Of a DNA stretch of 64,000 nucleotides, positions 31,424-54,321 are shown one piece after another. Source of the DNA: Candidatus Methanomethylophilaceae archaeon (GTDB lineage: Archaea; Thermoplasmatota; Thermoplasmata; Methanomassiliicoccales; Methanomethylophilaceae); assembly GCA_944321505.1 (NCBI GenBank), contig CALULN010000013.1, positions 1-64,000 on the forward strand. The letters run 5' to 3'. The notes under the pieces are model-generated. The model saw only the letters and a program-made list of their open reading frames with translations. It was not told where the DNA came from and searched no databases. A program made the translations under genes and the position numbers. How positions within the stretch are numbered: the stretch's first letter is position 1; every line of letters begins with the position of its first letter.

Positions 31424-31861
31424 TCATAACAGGACCGCCATGCTGACCTTCAGCACGCCGCCGCCGGTCACATGGTACTCTCTCGTGCAGGATGATACGG
31501 GATCGCCGTCCTCGGTGCCTAGGGTCACTCCGATGCCGTTGTAGTCCAGGACTATGCGGTACCCGTAGCGGTCGCCGATGGCGTCGCGCATCACCCCGTC
31601 CATGTAGCCCTCGATGAATGATGTCTCACCGGAGTTCACCGCCATGGCGGCCAGGTCGGCCATGGGGTAGACGGTGCCGCCGCCTCCCTCCACCACCTCC
31701 TCAGCTTTCAGGCGGGCGTCGAAGATGCCGTCGCAGATCTCCGAGGCATCCGGCCCGTCATGGGCAATCTGCGGGACGCCGATGACCGCGCATGCCGCAA
31801 CCGCGAGTATGGTCACAAATATGACCGCGTCCAATGTGGACACCAGACCTCTGCGGTTCAT
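31424..31861 (-). CDS. Pseudopilin-like small membrane protein
   Basis: A 145-residue protein whose N-terminus looks like a class III (pilin-type) signal: NRRG then a hydrophobic helix LVSTLDAVIFVTILAVAACAVIGV, where cleavage could follow the glycine. The rest is a soluble globular part with a cysteine (EICDGIFDARLKAEEV) and SSCTREYHV near the end. It overlaps the pilin-like gene upstream by ATGA and shares its promoter. The type IV pilus-type ATPase and platform genes are about 2.5-6 kb to the right. I cannot say whether it is a major or minor pilin. Confidence 0.62.
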   Translation of the reverse strand: MNRRGLVSTLDAVIFVTILAVAACAVIGVPQIAHDGPDASEICDGIFDARLKAEEVVEGGGGTVYPMADLAAMAVNSGETSFIEGYMDGVMRDAIGDRYGYRIVLDYNGIGVTLGTEDGDPVSSCTREYHVTGGGVLKVSMAVLL

Positions 31862-32256
31862 GCGGATGATACCACCACCTCGTATGCCGCGGTGACCGCC
31901 GTGCCGTCGTCGCAGGGCACCGCCATGGTGCCGGATGCGAACCCCAGGTTCTCGCCGGAGACATCCCCGGCCTTCAGCGTCACCGGTCCGTCGGGCAGCC
32001 TGACGATCACCTTCACCGCCATGGACCCGTACCCCATCATCCCGCACTCCCTCCGGAGGACATCCTCGTCGATCCCGACTATCACTCCGTCCTCGACTGA
32101 CAATGCGTCGAGGAATGACAGGGACACCTCCGGAGGGTGCTCCTCCGCGGCCGTGTGGACGAGAACGCCCATGAACGCAGTCAGCGCTATGGTGGCCACC
32201 ATCATGGCCACCAGCGCCTCCATGAATCCCGCTTCCGCTCTCCTGTTGAGCCTCAT
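31858..32256 (-). CDS. Type IV pilin-like protein
   Basis: A 132-residue protein with a basic N-terminus (MRLNRRAEAG) followed by FMEALVAMMVATIALTAFMGVLV, the form of an archaeal prepilin: positive stretch, glycine, then a helix with an early glutamate. The remainder is a small beta-rich domain (SMAVKVIVRLPDGPVTLKAGD). First gene of a two-gene unit with the pseudopilin downstream. The ATG at 32256 lies 29 bases from a TATA box that carries the same upstream element as the pilus-export operon on the other strand. Confidence 0.65.
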   Translation of the reverse strand: MRLNRRAEAGFMEALVAMMVATIALTAFMGVLVHTAAEEHPPEVSLSFLDALSVEDGVIVGIDEDVLRRECGMMGYGSMAVKVIVRLPDGPVTLKAGDVSGENLGFASGTMAVPCDDGTAVTAAYEVVVSSA

Positions 32257-32280: not shown

Positions 32281-32305
32281 GTTATAAATCGGGAGCTACG
32301 GTTAG
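32281..32305 (-). promoter_or_regulatory. Pilin operon promoter with shared 15-bp upstream element
   Basis: On the minus strand CTAACCGTAGCTCCC (32305-32291) is followed by GA and TTTATAAC (32288-32281), with the pilin ATG 24 bases further on. The same 15-bp element, same TATA core and nearly same spacing occur at 34260-34284 on the plus strand. Together 23 of 25 positions agree. The element lies in the 50-base gap between the U32 gene stop and the pilin start. Confidence 0.8.
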
Positions 32306-32306
32306 C

Positions 32307-34196
32307 CTACACCCCTCTCAGGTAGTGGCCGGTGTTGACGGTGCCGCCGCACATCCTCCTGACCGTGGCCGCATCCTCTGCGGAGCGGGTGCGGAACGCC
32401 TTCCCAACCGCCTGTGCCAGCGCCGCCGGGCGCTTCCTGACGTCGATCCCCAGGGAGCCGATCCCCCAGCGTGACAGCTCGTCCACACGGTCAAGGAGCA
32501 TGGTGTCCGACGAGTTCAGTATGCGGACGAAGCCTCCGCGGTCCCTGTAGACCGGGAACACGAACCCCCTGCCGTCGGTTATGGAACCTGCCGCCAGGTT
32601 GGGGTCGCGGCTGTACATCAGCTCCGCCCTGCCGAAGGCCATGCACTCCAGACGCCCGCCGTATGTGGAGCAGATGTCCCTGATCTCGGCTCTGGAGAGC
32701 TCCAGGGACAGGGTGGTCTGATACGACTCCAGAGGGAATGCGGAGTTCATCATGTTGCAGACGTGGCTGCAGTACACCTGCCTGCCGTCGTTGTACCTGC
32801 GGTACTGCCCGGGGTTGTGGACCATCACCGGCACCCCCGCCGGGATCTCCGGCTCCTCCGGGGTCATCCTCGGCAGATGGACCACCAGCCTTTCGCCGGC
32901 GATGCCCGCGGCCTCCTCCCAGTCGGACCCGTCGTAGTACACCCTGTCTGCGTATGGGAGCACCGCCTCCAGCACCTTCAGGGTGGACACGTAGAACGAC
33001 AGCTCCGGATCGGCCTTCTCCCTGCGGATTTCAGGGAGGTCCCTGTGCCAGGGACAGCGATGGATGCCCCCTGTGAGCTTGGGCGGCTGCCCGATGAGGT
33101 TCTTGACCTCGTCTATCCTGGGGTCGTAGGTGCGGTACAGGTCGTACTCCCCGTCCGCCATCTTGAACGGGACGGTCTCGGTCCCCAGGGTGCGGACCTT
33201 GAACCCGCCGACCTTCTCCTCGCCGGAGAAGAACGAGACGCCGTCCCCGATCCCCAGACCCAGACCCTCTGTGGAGAACCTGCGGTTCCTCATGTGCACC
33301 CTTCCCAGGTACTGCCCCCTGTTGTCCGGATAGGTGGACTGCACCAGGTCGCGGACGCCGTCGAGGTATCCGTTGCAGTACCCGCGGTTGAACACCGTCT
33401 TCAGCAGCTCCACCGTATGAGCCAGCTCCGGATCGTCGGGGTTCCTGTAAGCCAACGAGTAGGCCCTGGTGGCCAGGTACGCGTACGCCGGGCTCCTCAT
33501 CCTGCCCTCGATCTTCACCGATGCTATGCCCATCCGCTCAAGATCCCCCAGATGGTCTATGGCGTAGAGGTCGGCGTTACTCAGAAGATACCCCGACCCG
33601 GAAGGGGACTCGTACCGCTTCCTGCAGGGCTGGGCGCATTCCCCCCTGTTGCCGCTCCTCCCTCCAGCCATGGATGAGAAGAGGCAGCCGCCGGACATGC
33701 AGTAGCACATGGCCCCCTGCACGAACACCTCCAGCTCCACCGGGGACTCCGACGCGATGGCGGATATCTCCTCGAGAGTGAGCTCCCTCGCGAGTATGGC
33801 GCGCGATATGCCGTTCTCGGCGCACCATCTGGCGCCTTCGAGGGAGTGGATCTGCATCTGGGTGGAGGCGTGCTTCGCGATGGGTATGTGCCGTATGGAG
33901 TCCAGCAGACCCAGGTCCTGGATGATGACGGCGTCGGCCCCGGCATCCTTGACGAACTGCACGAACTGCACCGCCTCGTCCAGCTCGCTGTTCTTGACCA
34001 GGGTGTTCACGGTCACGTGCACCCTGACGCCGTTGGCGTGGGCGTAGGCGACGGCTCCCTCCAGCTCCGGGTCCGAGAAGTTCTTGGCGGATGCCCTGGC
34101 GCCGAAGTCCTTGCCTGCGAGGTACACGGCATCGGCGCCCCCCTTCACCGCCGCCACCAATGATTCCGGCGATCCGGCGGGCGCGAGTATCTCCAT
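32307..34196 (-). CDS. U32 family peptidase/RNA-hydroxylation-type protein
   Basis: A 629-residue U32-family protein. The TIM-barrel-like start MEILAPAGSPESLVAAVKGGADAVYLAG, LSPVELEVFVQGAMCYCMSGGC-type segment (read as VELEVFVQGAMCYCMSGGC) and GNRGECAQPCRKRY give the conserved four-cysteine cluster near residues 166-200. The long C-terminal part resembles RlhA/TrhP-type members, which hydroxylate rRNA or tRNA, rather than the short collagenase-like members. No catalytic residue assignment is possible by eye. A minus-strand TATA box (CTTATATAG, centre 34221) lies 25 bases before the ATG, so it is leaderless. It lies between the two pilus-related units and may not be functionally linked to them. 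Confidence 0.85.
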   Translation of the reverse strand: MEILAPAGSPESLVAAVKGGADAVYLAGKDFGARASAKNFSDPELEGAVAYAHANGVRVHVTVNTLVKNSELDEAVQFVQFVKDAGADAVIIQDLGLLDSIRHIPIAKHASTQMQIHSLEGARWCAENGISRAILARELTLEEISAIASESPVELEVFVQGAMCYCMSGGCLFSSMAGGRSGNRGECAQPCRKRYESPSGSGYLLSNADLYAIDHLGDLERMGIASVKIEGRMRSPAYAYLATRAYSLAYRNPDDPELAHTVELLKTVFNRGYCNGYLDGVRDLVQSTYPDNRGQYLGRVHMRNRRFSTEGLGLGIGDGVSFFSGEEKVGGFKVRTLGTETVPFKMADGEYDLYRTYDPRIDEVKNLIGQPPKLTGGIHRCPWHRDLPEIRREKADPELSFYVSTLKVLEAVLPYADRVYYDGSDWEEAAGIAGERLVVHLPRMTPEEPEIPAGVPVMVHNPGQYRRYNDGRQVYCSHVCNMMNSAFPLESYQTTLSLELSRAEIRDICSTYGGRLECMAFGRAELMYSRDPNLAAGSITDGRGFVFPVYRDRGGFVRILNSSDTMLLDRVDELSRWGIGSLGIDVRKRPAALAQAVGKAFRTRSAEDAATVRRMCGGTVNTGHYLRGV

Positions 34197-34259
34197 GCGG
34201 TTCCCATCGCAGACCGCTATATAAGGGGTTGTCCGCGCGCGGCAAGGAGAGCTAACCCT

Positions 34260-34284
34260 CTAACCGTAGCTCCCGCCTTATAAC
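34260..34284 (+). promoter_or_regulatory. Pilus-export operon promoter with shared 15-bp upstream element
   Basis: CTAACCGTAGCTCCC (34260-34274) is followed by GC and CTTATAAC (34277-34284), with the ATG of the first gene 25 bases further on (34310). It is an inverted copy of the pilin-operon promoter at 32281-32305, with two differences in 25 bases. A short dyad GAGCTA (34249-34254)/TAGCTC (34267-34272) overlaps the element. Confidence 0.8.
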
Positions 34285-34309: not shown

Positions 34310-34822
34310 ATGGCATTCGGAAAGAGAGCCGGGAAGAAGAATGGGCCCTCCGTCACCGCCGACGGAGGCAGGCTGACGATCGACTGCAGGCCATGCGGCG
34401 GCCCCGCATGCATATCCGACGGGCGCTGCGCCGCCTGCATCTGCAGCGTGGTGAGATCGACGGGTGAGATCGACTCGATACTCATCAGGTCCGCCACCGA
34501 CACCGCATACCACGGCGAGGCCGTGGAGCTGGTGAGGGACCTGGCGTCCGCCTACGCCATGGCCACAGCGGACCTGGCGGACAGGCGCGGATCCAGATGC
34601 AGGATGTGCCGGAAATCCTTCGCCCACATCATGGCCGACCAGCTGCCGCTGTTCCCCGAGATCGACATCGAGGCTCTGAGGCAGAGGACGGCGCAGATCC
34701 CCGTGAGCAACGAGGTCTGCGGGATATGCGTGTCCGACTCGGCCAGGATGGCCGAGGAGCTCTGGAGCGCACTGTGCAGGCTCTCCGCCAGGATTGCGGA
34801 GTACGGCGGAGGCGGGTTCTGA
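34310..34822 (+). CDS. Unknown cysteine-rich protein, first gene of the pilus-export operon
   Basis: A 170-residue protein that I do not recognise. It has three cysteine groups: CRPCGGPACISDGRCAACIC (about residues 27-46), CRMCRKSF (about 97-104) and CGICVSD (about 138-144). That gives about 11 cysteines, enough for zinc or Fe-S sites. There is no signal peptide or membrane helix, so it should be cytoplasmic. The stop overlaps the ATPase start (TGATG), so the two are made together. Placed in front of a pilus ATPase, it could be a metal-dependent regulator or assembly factor; nothing in the sequence proves that. Confidence 0.65.
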   Translation: MAFGKRAGKKNGPSVTADGGRLTIDCRPCGGPACISDGRCAACICSVVRSTGEIDSILIRSATDTAYHGEAVELVRDLASAYAMATADLADRRGSRCRMCRKSFAHIMADQLPLFPEIDIEALRQRTAQIPVSNEVCGICVSDSARMAEELWSALCRLSARIAEYGGGGF

Positions 34823-36648
34823 TGGTCAGGATAGTCCGCGAGACCGAGGAGATATGCGCCGGACCCATCACCGGGACCGGCAGGGTTGACGCGTTCCCCG
34901 GGTACAGCATGCCCACCCAGGTCCGCACCGGGCCGATATGCGCATCCGCAGGCGCACGGGAGCCCGCGTGGGAGCCTGCGCCGAAGGCCGTCCCCGCACC
35001 TCCCGCGAGAGATGAGCCTGCCGCACAGGATGCCGTCGGGCTGCTGGCCGCCTTCGGGGAGATGACCCGCAGGATCGGCATGAGGAAACCTCTGTTCGCC
35101 GACTGCTGGACCGTCGGGACCGGAAGGGGCCTGAAGGAGCTGGAGGGCTACGACATGCCCGGAGGCAGGGTCACCATCGGCATCGCCGACGACGGCGAGC
35201 TCGAGTACAACCTGGTGCCCAGGGAGTACTCCTACGGGCCTGAGCTCACGGACGTGATACGCTCGGCGGTGGAGGCCGTCAGGTCCGAGTACCGCAGGAA
35301 GGGAGGCAGGATGGACCGTCAGTCCGTCCTGTTCTCCGCCAGGGAGCACATCTGCAGGACATGGCCGGAGTGCGACGACGTCAACTGGTCCATGGACGAC
35401 CTCTGCGACGCCGTCCACAGGTACGTCCTGGGCCTGGGGATCTTCGACATACTCCTGTCCGACCCCAGGATCGAGGACATCTACGTGGACGCCCCCTGCG
35501 ACAGGAACCGCATCCACATCACCATGAACAGCGTGGAGGGGTTCAACTCCCACGTCCGCTGCAGGACCAACCTCATCGCCGAGGACAGGGAGATCAAGAA
35601 CCTCATCAGCCGTCTGAAGAAGGACACCGGCCTCCCCTACTGCGAGTCCAGCCCCGTCCTGGAGACGGACATGGACGACGGGAGGGCCAGGGCCACGGTT
35701 GTCGGCTACCCCATGAGCCCGAACGGCGATTCGGTTGCGATAAGGAAGCATTCCGCATCCCCCTGGACCCTGACCCGCCTCATCGGCAACGGCACCATCT
35801 CCGCCAGGTCGGCGGGTCTGCTGTCATTCCTGGTGGACAACAGGTCGTCCATCATCGTGTGCGGAGCCAGGGGTGCAGGCAAGAGCTCCCTGCTGTCCGC
35901 CCTGATGTTCGAGTTCCCGCTGGCCCAGAGGATACTCACCATCGAGGACACCATGGAGCTGCCCGCCAGGACCATGAGAGGCCTGGGATACAAGGTGCAG
36001 ACCCTGCTGATCGACGACAGGATGAGCGGCGACGCCAGGTCCAGGGCGGACGATGCCCTCAGGGTCTCCCTGAGGCTGGGCGAATCCGCCATAGTCCTGG
36101 GAGAGGTCAGGGGCGACGAGGCCCGCACCCTCTACCAGAGCATGAGGACAGGCAAGGCCGGGAGCTCCATCATGGGCACGATGCACGGCGACTCCGCCAG
36201 GAGCGTCTACGAGCGCGTGGTACACGACATGGGGATCAGCCCGGAGGCCTTCATGGCCACCGACTTCCTCGTCACGCTGGGCATGGTCAGGGAGAGGGGA
36301 GGCCACAGGCAGAACCGCGCCCTGACGGAGATGGTCTCCACCTCCGGTATCCCCGGCGAGTTCACCGACATCACCGGGGCCGGCCTGCTGATGTCCCCCG
36401 CCGTGAGGAGGATCATGGACGCCTCGTCCATGGACGCCAGGGACCTGGAGGACGAGATACAGATGCGCGCGGACATGCGCCAGCTGCTGGCCGACCTCGC
36501 CCATAGGCACGGGGACAGGTTCTACGGGCCGGAGTGGATAGTCATGGCCAACGACCACCTGTCCGCGCAGCTGTCCTCAGGGATCAGGGACAGGAAGGCG
36601 ATCGTGGAGTCCTTCCGCAGAAGGGTCTCCGAGACCGCGGGGGTGTGA
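34822..36648 (+). CDS. Type II/IV secretion ATPase (TadA/PilB/VirB11-like)
   Basis: A 608-residue hexameric ATPase that powers pilus or secretion assembly at the membrane. After a variable, proline-rich N-terminus (about 1-75) the core has DPRIEDIYVDAP, Walker A GARGAGKSS (about 350-358), the Asp box TIEDTMELP, Walker B AIVLGEVRGDE (about 423-433) and the His box GTMHGDSARSVYERVVHD. The ATG at 34822 overlaps the Cys-rich gene stop. The T2SF platform gene starts 3 bases after its stop. The family assignment is firm; whether it builds a pilus or exports proteins is inference. Confidence 0.92.
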   Translation: MVRIVRETEEICAGPITGTGRVDAFPGYSMPTQVRTGPICASAGAREPAWEPAPKAVPAPPARDEPAAQDAVGLLAAFGEMTRRIGMRKPLFADCWTVGTGRGLKELEGYDMPGGRVTIGIADDGELEYNLVPREYSYGPELTDVIRSAVEAVRSEYRRKGGRMDRQSVLFSAREHICRTWPECDDVNWSMDDLCDAVHRYVLGLGIFDILLSDPRIEDIYVDAPCDRNRIHITMNSVEGFNSHVRCRTNLIAEDREIKNLISRLKKDTGLPYCESSPVLETDMDDGRARATVVGYPMSPNGDSVAIRKHSASPWTLTRLIGNGTISARSAGLLSFLVDNRSSIIVCGARGAGKSSLLSALMFEFPLAQRILTIEDTMELPARTMRGLGYKVQTLLIDDRMSGDARSRADDALRVSLRLGESAIVLGEVRGDEARTLYQSMRTGKAGSSIMGTMHGDSARSVYERVVHDMGISPEAFMATDFLVTLGMVRERGGHRQNRALTEMVSTSGIPGEFTDITGAGLLMSPAVRRIMDASSMDARDLEDEIQMRADMRQLLADLAHRHGDRFYGPEWIVMANDHLSAQLSSGIRDRKAIVESFRRRVSETAGV

Positions 36649-36651
36649 GGG

Positions 36652-38199
36652 ATGGACCCGAAGACCTCCGCGATCCTGGCAGCACTGGTCTCCGCCGGGG
36701 CCTTCGCCGCCATTGCAACGCTGATCGGGATCGACAGCGTGCGCCTGGCGGCACCCGCCTTCGCAGCCCTCCCCCTTGCGGTCTACCTCAAATGGAGGGA
36801 GAGGGCCAGCCCCTTCAGGATCGGCCCCATGCTCAACGAGGCCCCCTCCGTCGTGTCCATGATGTCCGCCGTCCTGGCGGCCGGAGGCTCCCTGGACGCC
36901 GCCATCAGGTACGTGGCGGAGAACGGCCCCGCCCGCAGCTCCGCGATATTCGGGGACCTGGTCACCGCGGTGGACTGCAGGGAGGCCCCCGACATGAGGG
37001 AGGCCTTCCACAGGATGCTCTCCTCCATGCCCGCAGAGCTGGGCCCCTACAGGAGGGCCATGCACATGGTGGTCTCCGCCTCCGACGCCGCCGGCGCCGA
37101 GATGAGCAGGATACTCAGGGAGGCCACGGAATCCGCCCTGGCCGGGCTGAGGCAGGCCGGCGAGGAGTACAGCTCCAAGCTCCAGAGCCCCTGCATGGTT
37201 GTGTTCGCCCTGGGCATCATGGTCCCCATGATCCTGCTGTCCATAGTCCCCCTCCTGGGGATCGGCGGGGAGTTCGGGGCGGAGCTGCCCGTCAGCGACG
37301 CTCTTATGGAGTTCCTTGTCCTGGTTGCGGTGCCGGTCTGCGTCGGCATGGTCATGGTGTCCATCCGCGGCAGGAACCCCATGTCCTCCGGATCGCCCTC
37401 CGGGAGGGGATGGTGGAGGGCCGCCGCCTTCCTGGCGGCTGTTCCTCTGTGCGGGGCCCTCCGTTCCGCAGGGTTCGACGACAGTGCCTCGATCGTGATC
37501 GCGGTCATCGCCGCATCGATGCTGGCACTTGCCACCGTCCTCCCCGAGGTCAGGAGGGAGAAGGCCAGAGTGAGGACCGAGAGCGCGCTGAAGGACGTCC
37601 TCTTCGACCTGGGCAACCGCCTAGTTGCCGGCGAGAATTTCGAATCCGCCCTTACCGGGTCCATGGCCGTGAGGAAGGAGTGTCGCGACCTGGCGGAGCG
37701 CCTCTCCAGGGAGATCGTGCTGTGCAGGGGCGATGTGGCCGGAGCCGTGCAGGCGTGCGTGTCCCCGGTGTCCCCGCAGATCGCCGGGATGCTGGCGGAC
37801 GTGCATTCCGCCTCCCTCAGGGACATAAGGGACTCCGGGAGGCTGGCAACCGCGCTGGCTCACCAGCTCCAGGACAGGGACTCCGTGTGGAAGGCCACCG
37901 CCAACAGGCTCAGGAGCCTCAGCGACATGATGACCGGCACCGCCGCGGTGTTCGCGCCCCTGGTGCTGGGCATGAGCATCATGATGCTGAGCCCCATATC
38001 CGGCCTCACCGGCGGCGCGGACATCCCCGGGACATTCTCCATGGTGGCGGTCTACCTGTGCGAGTTGGCGTTCATGATGTCGGGGTTCTCGGCGGTGCTG
38101 TCGGACAGGTTCGGATCCACCGAGGTTGTGTACAGAGCGTCCATCGTGCTCTCGGCCGCCATGGCCATCCTCCTGGTCTGCTCCAGGCTCTCCTTCTGA
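36652..38199 (+). CDS. Type II/IV secretion platform protein (T2SF/TadBC-like)
   Basis: A 515-residue inner-membrane protein with two copies of the T2SF helical module. The first is about residues 60-200 (SVVSMMSAVLAAGGSLDAAIRYVAENGPAR). The second is about 300-420 (LFDLGNRLVAGENFESALTG...RECRDLAERLSREI, read with KE before C). Several membrane segments separate them (AAIATLIGI, MVVFALGIMVPMILLSIVPLLG, FLVLVAVPVCVGMVMV, and the C-terminal VVYRASIVLSAAMAILLVC). It would form the membrane base for the ATPase encoded directly upstream. A hairpin with a short T-run follows. Confidence 0.88.
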   Translation: MDPKTSAILAALVSAGAFAAIATLIGIDSVRLAAPAFAALPLAVYLKWRERASPFRIGPMLNEAPSVVSMMSAVLAAGGSLDAAIRYVAENGPARSSAIFGDLVTAVDCREAPDMREAFHRMLSSMPAELGPYRRAMHMVVSASDAAGAEMSRILREATESALAGLRQAGEEYSSKLQSPCMVVFALGIMVPMILLSIVPLLGIGGEFGAELPVSDALMEFLVLVAVPVCVGMVMVSIRGRNPMSSGSPSGRGWWRAAAFLAAVPLCGALRSAGFDDSASIVIAVIAASMLALATVLPEVRREKARVRTESALKDVLFDLGNRLVAGENFESALTGSMAVRKECRDLAERLSREIVLCRGDVAGAVQACVSPVSPQIAGMLADVHSASLRDIRDSGRLATALAHQLQDRDSVWKATANRLRSLSDMMTGTAAVFAPLVLGMSIMMLSPISGLTGGADIPGTFSMVAVYLCELAFMMSGFSAVLSDRFGSTEVVYRASIVLSAAMAILLVCSRLSF

Positions 38200-52902: not shown

Positions 52903-54321
52903 ATGAGGAGGACGTTCGTCACCAGGGTGGAGGACAGGGCGGGATCGTTCCTGAAGGCGGCCAGGGCGGTGGCCTCCCACGGCGGGAACATCGCCAGGAC
53001 CAGCTACAACCGGACGGTGGACAGCAGGACCGTCTTCATGGACGTGACCGCCGGCTCCGAAGAGGACCTGGATGCCATAACGGCCGACCTGGAGGGCATG
53101 GGGTACCTGCGCACCGGCGAGGACGAGGAGGTCCTTCTGCTGGAGCTCAGGCTGAGGGACGTCCCCGGAGCGATAGTCCCCGCCCTGGAGGTCCTGGACC
53201 GCCACGGCGTGAACATATCCTACATGAACGCCAGAGAGGACGGCGGCCCCTACCAGTCCTTCGCCATGGGCATCTATCTGGAGAGCACCGCCGCGGCGAA
53301 GGCCGTGCTGGAGGAGCTCTCCGGCATCTGCCAGGTCACCGTCAGGGACTACAGCGCCACGGACCTGGCACTGGACAACACCGTGTTCTACATCACCTTC
53401 GCCGACGACATCAGGAGGATGCTGTCCCTGGACGACGTGCGTGCTCGGGAGGTGCTGGTCGCCTCCAACATGGCCATGCAGCACCTCGAGTCGACGGGCG
53501 GGCAGCCTGCGAAGACGTTCGCCTACATACGCAGGTTCGCCGAGGACGTGGCCGCAGGGCTGCACGGAGGGTTCTCCCCCGTGACGGATACGATGGACCT
53601 CCCCGGAGGGAGGAGGCTGCACATGTTCGAGCCGCCCTGCGGCAGCACCACCTACGTCCTGGAATCCGACGAGGAGCAGCTGTTCGTGGACGGCGGGTTC
53701 TCCTGCTTCTCCGATGCCATGATGCGGATCGTCGACTCCGCATGCCCCGCCCGCGGAAGGAGGCGGGTGCTGGCGATCACCCACTCGGACGTGGACCACA
53801 CCGGGCTGTGGCCGTTCTTCGACAGGATCCTTGCGTCGGGTGCCGCGGCGGACGACATCCGCCGCCAGCATGAGGGCGGCCCGGCGCTGAGGGAGGCCGA
53901 CCCCAGGCATGCCCCGTACTACAGGCTGAGCAAGGCCATCTCCGGCCACCGCATCCCGGACCCCGACAGGATCGAGGCCGTCGGCAGGAGGTCCGGCGAC
54001 GGAACGTACGAATCCATAGGGTCGTTCGAGGCATGCGGCCTGGTGTTCGAAGCCTGCGAGGGCAACGGCGGACACATACCCGGGGACACGGTGTTCGCCT
54101 GCAGGGAGCTGCGCATAGTGTTCACGGGAGACGACCTGATCAACCCCGGAGGCTCCTCCGAGAGCCAATCCGAGTTCAACACCCTGGCGCCGTATCTGAT
54201 GGAGAGCGTCAACACCAACTCCGCCAAGGCCCGCGAATGCAGGAAGCGCCTCACGGAGATGTTCGGCGGATGGACGGCGTGCCCGGGCCACGGGAGCTGG
54301 ATGACGATAAGAAACGCGTGA
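52903..54321 (+). CDS. ACT-ACT-metallo-beta-lactamase fusion protein
   Basis: A 472-residue protein with an unusual order. Two ACT-like domains come first (about 1-75: TFVTRVEDRAGSFLKAARAVASHGGNIART; about 82-160: LELRLRDVPGAIVPALEVLDRHGVNISYM), then a linker, then an MBL-fold domain (about 225-470: GSTTYVLESDEEQLFVDGGF). The metal motif is H-S-D-V-D-H, where the second His of HxHxDH is Asp, like the HxExDH of flavodiiron proteins. GGHIPGDT and FTGDDLI follow. The ATG at 52903 has GGGAG upstream. The ACT pair suggests control of a hydrolase by an amino acid. Confidence 0.75.
   Translation: MRRTFVTRVEDRAGSFLKAARAVASHGGNIARTSYNRTVDSRTVFMDVTAGSEEDLDAITADLEGMGYLRTGEDEEVLLLELRLRDVPGAIVPALEVLDRHGVNISYMNAREDGGPYQSFAMGIYLESTAAAKAVLEELSGICQVTVRDYSATDLALDNTVFYITFADDIRRMLSLDDVRAREVLVASNMAMQHLESTGGQPAKTFAYIRRFAEDVAAGLHGGFSPVTDTMDLPGGRRLHMFEPPCGSTTYVLESDEEQLFVDGGFSCFSDAMMRIVDSACPARGRRRVLAITHSDVDHTGLWPFFDRILASGAAADDIRRQHEGGPALREADPRHAPYYRLSKAISGHRIPDPDRIEAVGRRSGDGTYESIGSFEACGLVFEACEGNGGHIPGDTVFACRELRIVFTGDDLINPGGSSESQSEFNTLAPYLMESVNTNSAKARECRKRLTEMFGGWTACPGHGSWMTIRNA

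Follow-up and report, generated by a model that had tools for sequence, protein, structure and literature searches.

A conserved nine-base promoter element as the putative site of a factor co-regulating scattered type IV pilus genes in Methanomassiliicoccales

The window, i.e. the whole stretch of 64,000 nucleotides that was analysed, contains two pilus-related operons on opposite strands that seem to share one promoter element, raising the question of whether pilin genes and pilus machine genes may be switched by the same factor. The first operon consists of pilA (31858..32256, -), coding for a pilin-like protein of 132 amino acids with a short charged N terminus followed by a hydrophobic helix and adjoining the U32 gene across the family, and pilB (31424..31861, -), coding for a second pilin-like protein of 145 amino acids (NRRGLVSTLDAVIFVTILAV). 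Neither protein matched Pfam, and the pattern of a class III signal peptide and hydrophobic helix that suggests their nature was recognized by inspection. The second operon starts with a gene for a Cys-rich protein of 170 amino acids (34310..34822, +), followed by genes for a pilus assembly ATPase of 608 amino acids (34822..36648, +) and a putative platform membrane protein of 515 amino acids (36652..38199, +). The ATPase belongs to the TadA/FlaI/CpaF/VirB11 superfamily (PF00437, E=4.7e-20), with 2oap, CpaF, and FlaI as relatives in the PDB and with scores below the cut-off for the TadA- and FlaI-type models of NCBIfam. The platform protein matched PF00482 just below the cut-off (E=6.5e-05; 23.3 bits versus 25.2), and its position in the operon fits such a role. 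A peptidase U32 family gene (32307..34196, -; PF01136, E=2e-73), syntenic across the order, lies between both operons; it has a TATA-like promoter of its own (34217-34226, -) and was left out of the regulon. This gene order, with pilB-pilA-U32 on the minus strand and cys-ATPase-platform on the plus strand, is largely kept in the order, the small pilins often being too diverged for detection in relatives. The U32 gene is locked between the pilin and pilus machine operons in nearly all loci read from the order, without carrying the shared element.

The earlier note had placed the two copies of the element at 34260-34284 (+; CTAACCGTAGCTCCCGCCTTATAAC) and 32305-32281 (-; CTAACCGTAGCTCCCGATTTATAAC), with 23 of 25 bases identical and with 25 bases left to the ATG at 34310 (+) and 24 bases to the ATG at 32256 (-), all of which was confirmed on the sequence. 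Both promoters contain the 15-mer CTAACCGTAGCTCCC followed by a TATA box, the minus-strand copy standing directly 3' of the stop codon of the U32 gene. In both cases the nine-base core CTAACCGTA (34260..34268, + and 32297..32305, -), which was also followed through orthologous promoters, is separated by 9 bases from the TATA box TTATAA (34278..34283, + and 32282..32287, -), and this spacing recurs in relatives. The distance of about 25 nucleotides from TATA box to ATG would fit leaderless transcripts for both operons. In addition, a second CTAAC (34252..34256, +) occurs in the same direction 8 bases upstream of the core of the machine promoter, a tandem arrangement (CTAACCCGCTAACC) that is also found in the machine promoter of genome G094. 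The absence of a third copy from the window had been judged correctly by eye, as the exact 15-mer occurs twice and the next-best match (54104-54118) has three mismatches. A third exact copy is present in the whole genome of 1.385 Mb (C10:6812-6826), where 0.0035 would be expected by chance (2 x 1.385 Mb at 60% GC); an ATG follows about 34 bases beyond it, compared with about 35 bases for both window copies. The gene behind this copy has 59 codons, and its relatives also carry the element.

Regarding the part of the element that is conserved, orthologous promoters were fetched by synteny, independently of the motif, and expectations were derived from dinucleotide shuffles. The 15-mer was rejected as the conserved element, since it occurred with at most one mismatch in only 5 of the 102 genomes of the family. 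Judged from these promoters, the conserved unit is the nine-base core CTAACYGTA, which they keep ahead of nine variable bases and the TATA box; the GCTCCC part of the 15-mer is, by the same comparison, local drift. Outside genus g10, the exact core was found on either strand in 17 of 27 pilin promoters (0.03 expected) and 17 of 27 machine promoters (0.08 expected) of the family, many of the genomes sampled being incomplete metagenome assemblies. In other families of the order, it was present in 7 of 19 pilin regions and 3 of 20 machine regions (about 0.05 and 0 expected, respectively). Many remaining orthologous promoters showed one mismatch at the same place, e.g. CTAACCTTA in G094, and some had only a degenerate core with two or three mismatches. 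The earlier note had proposed to look for the 15-base element ahead of orthologous genes, its absence there speaking against it; an element is indeed present across the family and the order, its conserved part being only the core.

Genome-wide searches, with the reversed pattern as control for core enrichment, extended the regulon considerably. The core followed by nine nucleotides and a TATA box gave 175 sites in the 102 genomes versus 38 for the reversed pattern, and 173 versus 27 outside genus g10, with about 0 to 8 sites per genome. In all, 147 distinct forward sites were examined. Of these, 120 stand ahead of gene families that recur and are mostly of pilus type, usually with an ATG 24 to 26 nucleotides behind the TATA pattern. 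The count of 120 is partly circular, as element-bearing loci served to define every family other than pilA, the machine operon, and U32. The recurrent families comprise pilA (22 forward sites), the Cys-rich/ATPase operon (21), an Ig/CarboxypepD-like pilin of about 155 amino acids (21), a giant pilin-like protein of about 1320 amino acids with a lamin-tail domain (LTD; 20), a YgjP-like protein (12, two of these being weak matches; leader of about 40-60 nucleotides), a TctA-family membrane protein (10), a tiny acidic protein (4), a PD-(D/E)XK-like protein (4; named by inspection and without a match in Pfam), a secreted LTD-PLD protein (3), a putative prepilin peptidase (2), and a minor pilin (1). 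Of all 171 distinct sites, 40 were left without an assigned family, 27 of them forward and 13 inverted, and chance matches are expected. Hence, the element does not occur at random throughout the genomes, and a regulon of only the two operons of the window, as first supposed, proved too small: it is much larger, covers many unlinked pilus-type families, and may carry the core inverted. Two inverted sites ahead of U32 were not treated as significant, and this gene was not accepted as a member. The prepilin peptidase with the element in G011 is A24-like (weak match, E 0.007) and has a homologue in G019. Secreted proteins combining lamin-tail and PLD domains stand behind the element in G011, G004, and G019 (L142:4050-6053, L127:4050-5099, and L263); their best relative in NCBIfam is the NucT nuclease, far below the cut-off.

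Free of the circularity mentioned above are the synteny test and a test on orthologues in the genome of the window itself. Searching at the protein level alone located the TctA, giant pilin-like, and Ig-pilin orthologues of this genome. The core is present in each of their promoters, in forward direction in the case of TctA (TAACTGTA) and as CTAAC-N7-GTTAG in the same register for the genes of the giant pilin-like protein (C29) and of the Ig-pilin (C10). The element thus stands ahead of no fewer than six transcription units in this genome, namely pilA/B, cys/ATPase/platform, the tiny gene, TctA, the giant pilin-like gene, and the Ig-pilin gene. The Ig-pilin gene is followed by two more small pilin-like genes (L005:9145-10432, C10), 2.3 kb from the third 15-mer. 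The tiny acidic proteins (59-69 amino acids, motif YExLFxxRDL; L001:1548-1724 on C10 of this genome, L092, L094, L152, and L279) stand behind the element in several genera, and one member compared with Pfam had no match. A further candidate site is located at G000:C16:20003-20050 (-) (loci L176/L177), where the core TAACCGTA is followed after 9 bases by a TATA-like TTATCT; it precedes a TauE/SafE-like membrane protein, named by inspection. The element also stands ahead of a conserved short predicted transcript that begins with GCCAGG..GGAGTCCGGC (L114:331-590, L292:2718-2977, L143:4049-4308, L131:4719-4978 (-), and L115:4086-4345 (-)). It contains hairpins, the last one with a changed stem sequence in G004, as well as a ribosome site (GGAGGTGA) and a hydrophobic peptide of about 35 amino acids (DQGR..LVLAAVRLIVELLK). 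This transcript matched no Rfam family and is absent from the genome of the window. In genus g10 it occurs in multiple copies, which lack the canonical element.

In genus g10, the canonical core was not enriched (2 matches versus 11 controls), its place in both promoters being taken by TGACCGCA. For instance, the machine promoter and the promoter of a pilA-like gene of G060 have 22 identical bases in common (TTTCCGATTGTTGACCGCAGTA), and G053 carries ACGTGACCGCACG in both its machine and pilin promoters. The change of AACCGTA into GACCGCA affects two positions, and the distance to the TATA box is roughly kept. Such a concerted change would be expected from a joint drift of factor and site, and is what co-evolution of a regulator and its site would look like; local gene conversion may have contributed to the identity of both promoters. 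A near-invariant protein of 60 amino acids (MDxKEQILEAMKKAGEPLNAGKVAELTGLDRK...) is encoded behind U32 at L074, L077, and L078 and was seen only in this genus; by appearance it looks like a winged helix and is a candidate regulator.

The orientation of the core bears on its nature as well. The reversed core TACRGTTAG, with an unchanged spacing to the TATA box, was found in the machine promoter of G090, ahead of pilA of G092, ahead of the giant pilin-like genes of G094 and G001, and ahead of the Ig-pilin genes of G092, G001, and G035. Inverted sites were accepted only where the downstream gene was a known target, their support coming from genus g1 and from single orthologous promoters. As a family-wide signal the inverted pattern was rejected, its few matches being hardly above those of its control. 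The BRE is directional, and the use of the core in inverted direction therefore speaks for a separate protein-binding site.

Taken together, the element is probably the site of one sequence-specific factor, likely an activator, that would co-regulate type IV pilus genes dispersed over the genomes of Methanomassiliicoccales, and it is very probable that the element-bearing pilus genes respond jointly to one protein. Co-regulation by a single factor, as put forward in the earlier note, is supported by the conservation of the element in orthologous promoters and its enrichment at pilus genes; the single binding protein is the part that we infer, together with activation and leaderless mRNAs. This factor would recognize CTAACYGTA(G) irrespective of its orientation. 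It would sit some 35-45 bases ahead of the start codon, just upstream of the B-recognition element (BRE), and could help TFB and TBP to load onto the TATA box that follows after 9 bases, with transcripts expected to begin at the start codon or close to it. A dedicated factor with a repressing or dual action on the pilus genes, instead of an activator, is rather unlikely, albeit with some points in its favour. Archaeal repressors often overlap the BRE or TATA box. A repressor placed beside the BRE could block TFB and TBP too, and many of the TATA boxes look good (TTATAA, TTTAATA), so that an activator is perhaps unnecessary. However, the core is clear of the TATA box, at a spacing of 9 with varied sequence in between, which is the layout of the activators EarA and Ptr2 (PMC10665913), and activation is favoured over repression because the layout is that of EarA. 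As to the purpose of the co-regulated genes, it is a doubtful idea that the pilus would capture and process environmental DNA under a dedicated switch, an idea put forward because the targets in some relatives include a secreted lamin-tail protein with two PLDs, giant lamin-tail pilin-like proteins, and a TctA-type protein. It is very improbable that the element is a lineage-specific basal promoter part, i.e. an extended BRE without pilus-specific information. The fixed spacing to TATA box and start codon would suit this, but the small number of sites per genome and their concentration on recurrent pilus-type families argue against it, as do the inverted core in the same register, unexpected for a BRE, and the lack of the element in most genomes at U32, which is divergent from the machine operon. 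Finally, recent copying or gene conversion between neighbouring promoters, instead of selection for a binding site, has hardly any probability left, as the core persists in different genera and families despite completely diverged flanks and stands at unlinked loci of the window's own genome (C10, C20, and C29), although 16 identical bases in this genome, 22 in G060, and flanks shared beyond what the core needs would suit it; as sole cause, copying is largely refuted by the cross-family footprint, and locally it may have contributed.

Concerning the identity of the factor, the activator of the archaellum operon of Methanococcus and Thermococcales, EarA, offers a comparable layout, as it acts about nine bases upstream of the BRE, where it presumably recruits TFB when the BRE is weak (PMC10665913). 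Like the EarA box, the element is a short box at a fixed distance upstream of BRE and TATA box (9 between core and TATA box in the present case), ahead of appendage genes. Unlike the EarA box, which is TACATA or A(C/G)(C/G)TACA(T/C) and stands ahead of one archaellum operon (PMC10665913), CTAACYGTA occurs ahead of many unlinked pilus operons, and the inverted core TACRGTTAG has only TACA in common with that box. EarA (PF07381) had no match at E<=0.01 in the genome of the window, and on this ground it was rejected as the factor; across the 147 genomes of the order, weak matches occurred in 13, one being over the cut-off and covering a partial C-terminal region (profile positions 55-89 of 90). 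Similarly, Ptr2 of Methanocaldococcus, an activator of the Lrp family, acts upstream of the TATA box by recruiting TBP (PMC10665913), a position that the element shares, whereas no Lrp-type factor is known to be linked to the element. A DNA-binding role of the Cys-rich protein was sought via its fold. The CxxC pairs of this protein suggest two metal sites, and its fair structure model (pLDDT 81.5) had no fold match in the PDB at E<=0.001, nor any better than E=1.

The genes concerned resemble those of archaeal type IV pili, such as Aap of Sulfolobus, PilB/C of Haloferax, and CdiP of Cuniculiplasma, in having a T2SSE-type ATPase, a probable platform protein, small putative pilins with a hydrophobic N terminus, distant pilin loci, and, in relatives, a putative prepilin peptidase; they differ in the Cys-rich first gene, the giant LTD pilin-like protein, and the secreted LTD-PLD protein. 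A census of archaeal pili from 2016 discussed Methanomassiliicoccus among the lineages without secretion ATPases (PMC4858521). As 96 of the 102 family genomes and 135 of the 147 order genomes encode a homologue of the ATPase, the pilus system of Methanomassiliicoccales may have been overlooked until now. The earlier note knew of no such element for archaeal pili, and a literature search indeed retrieved nothing on it or on how pili are regulated in Methanomassiliicoccales; among the matches listed for the motif string, all were unrelated. Very little is known about the regulation of archaeal pili outside a few model organisms. The nine-base element marks a regulon by sequence alone and so lists the scattered pilus genes of a genome, including those for giant pilin-like proteins, minor pilins, secreted nuclease-like proteins, and small unknown proteins. 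Furthermore, it can serve as bait to purify the regulator from these methanogens, and the order-wide footprint, together with the change in both promoters of genus g10, represents a natural experiment on the co-evolution of a regulator and its site.
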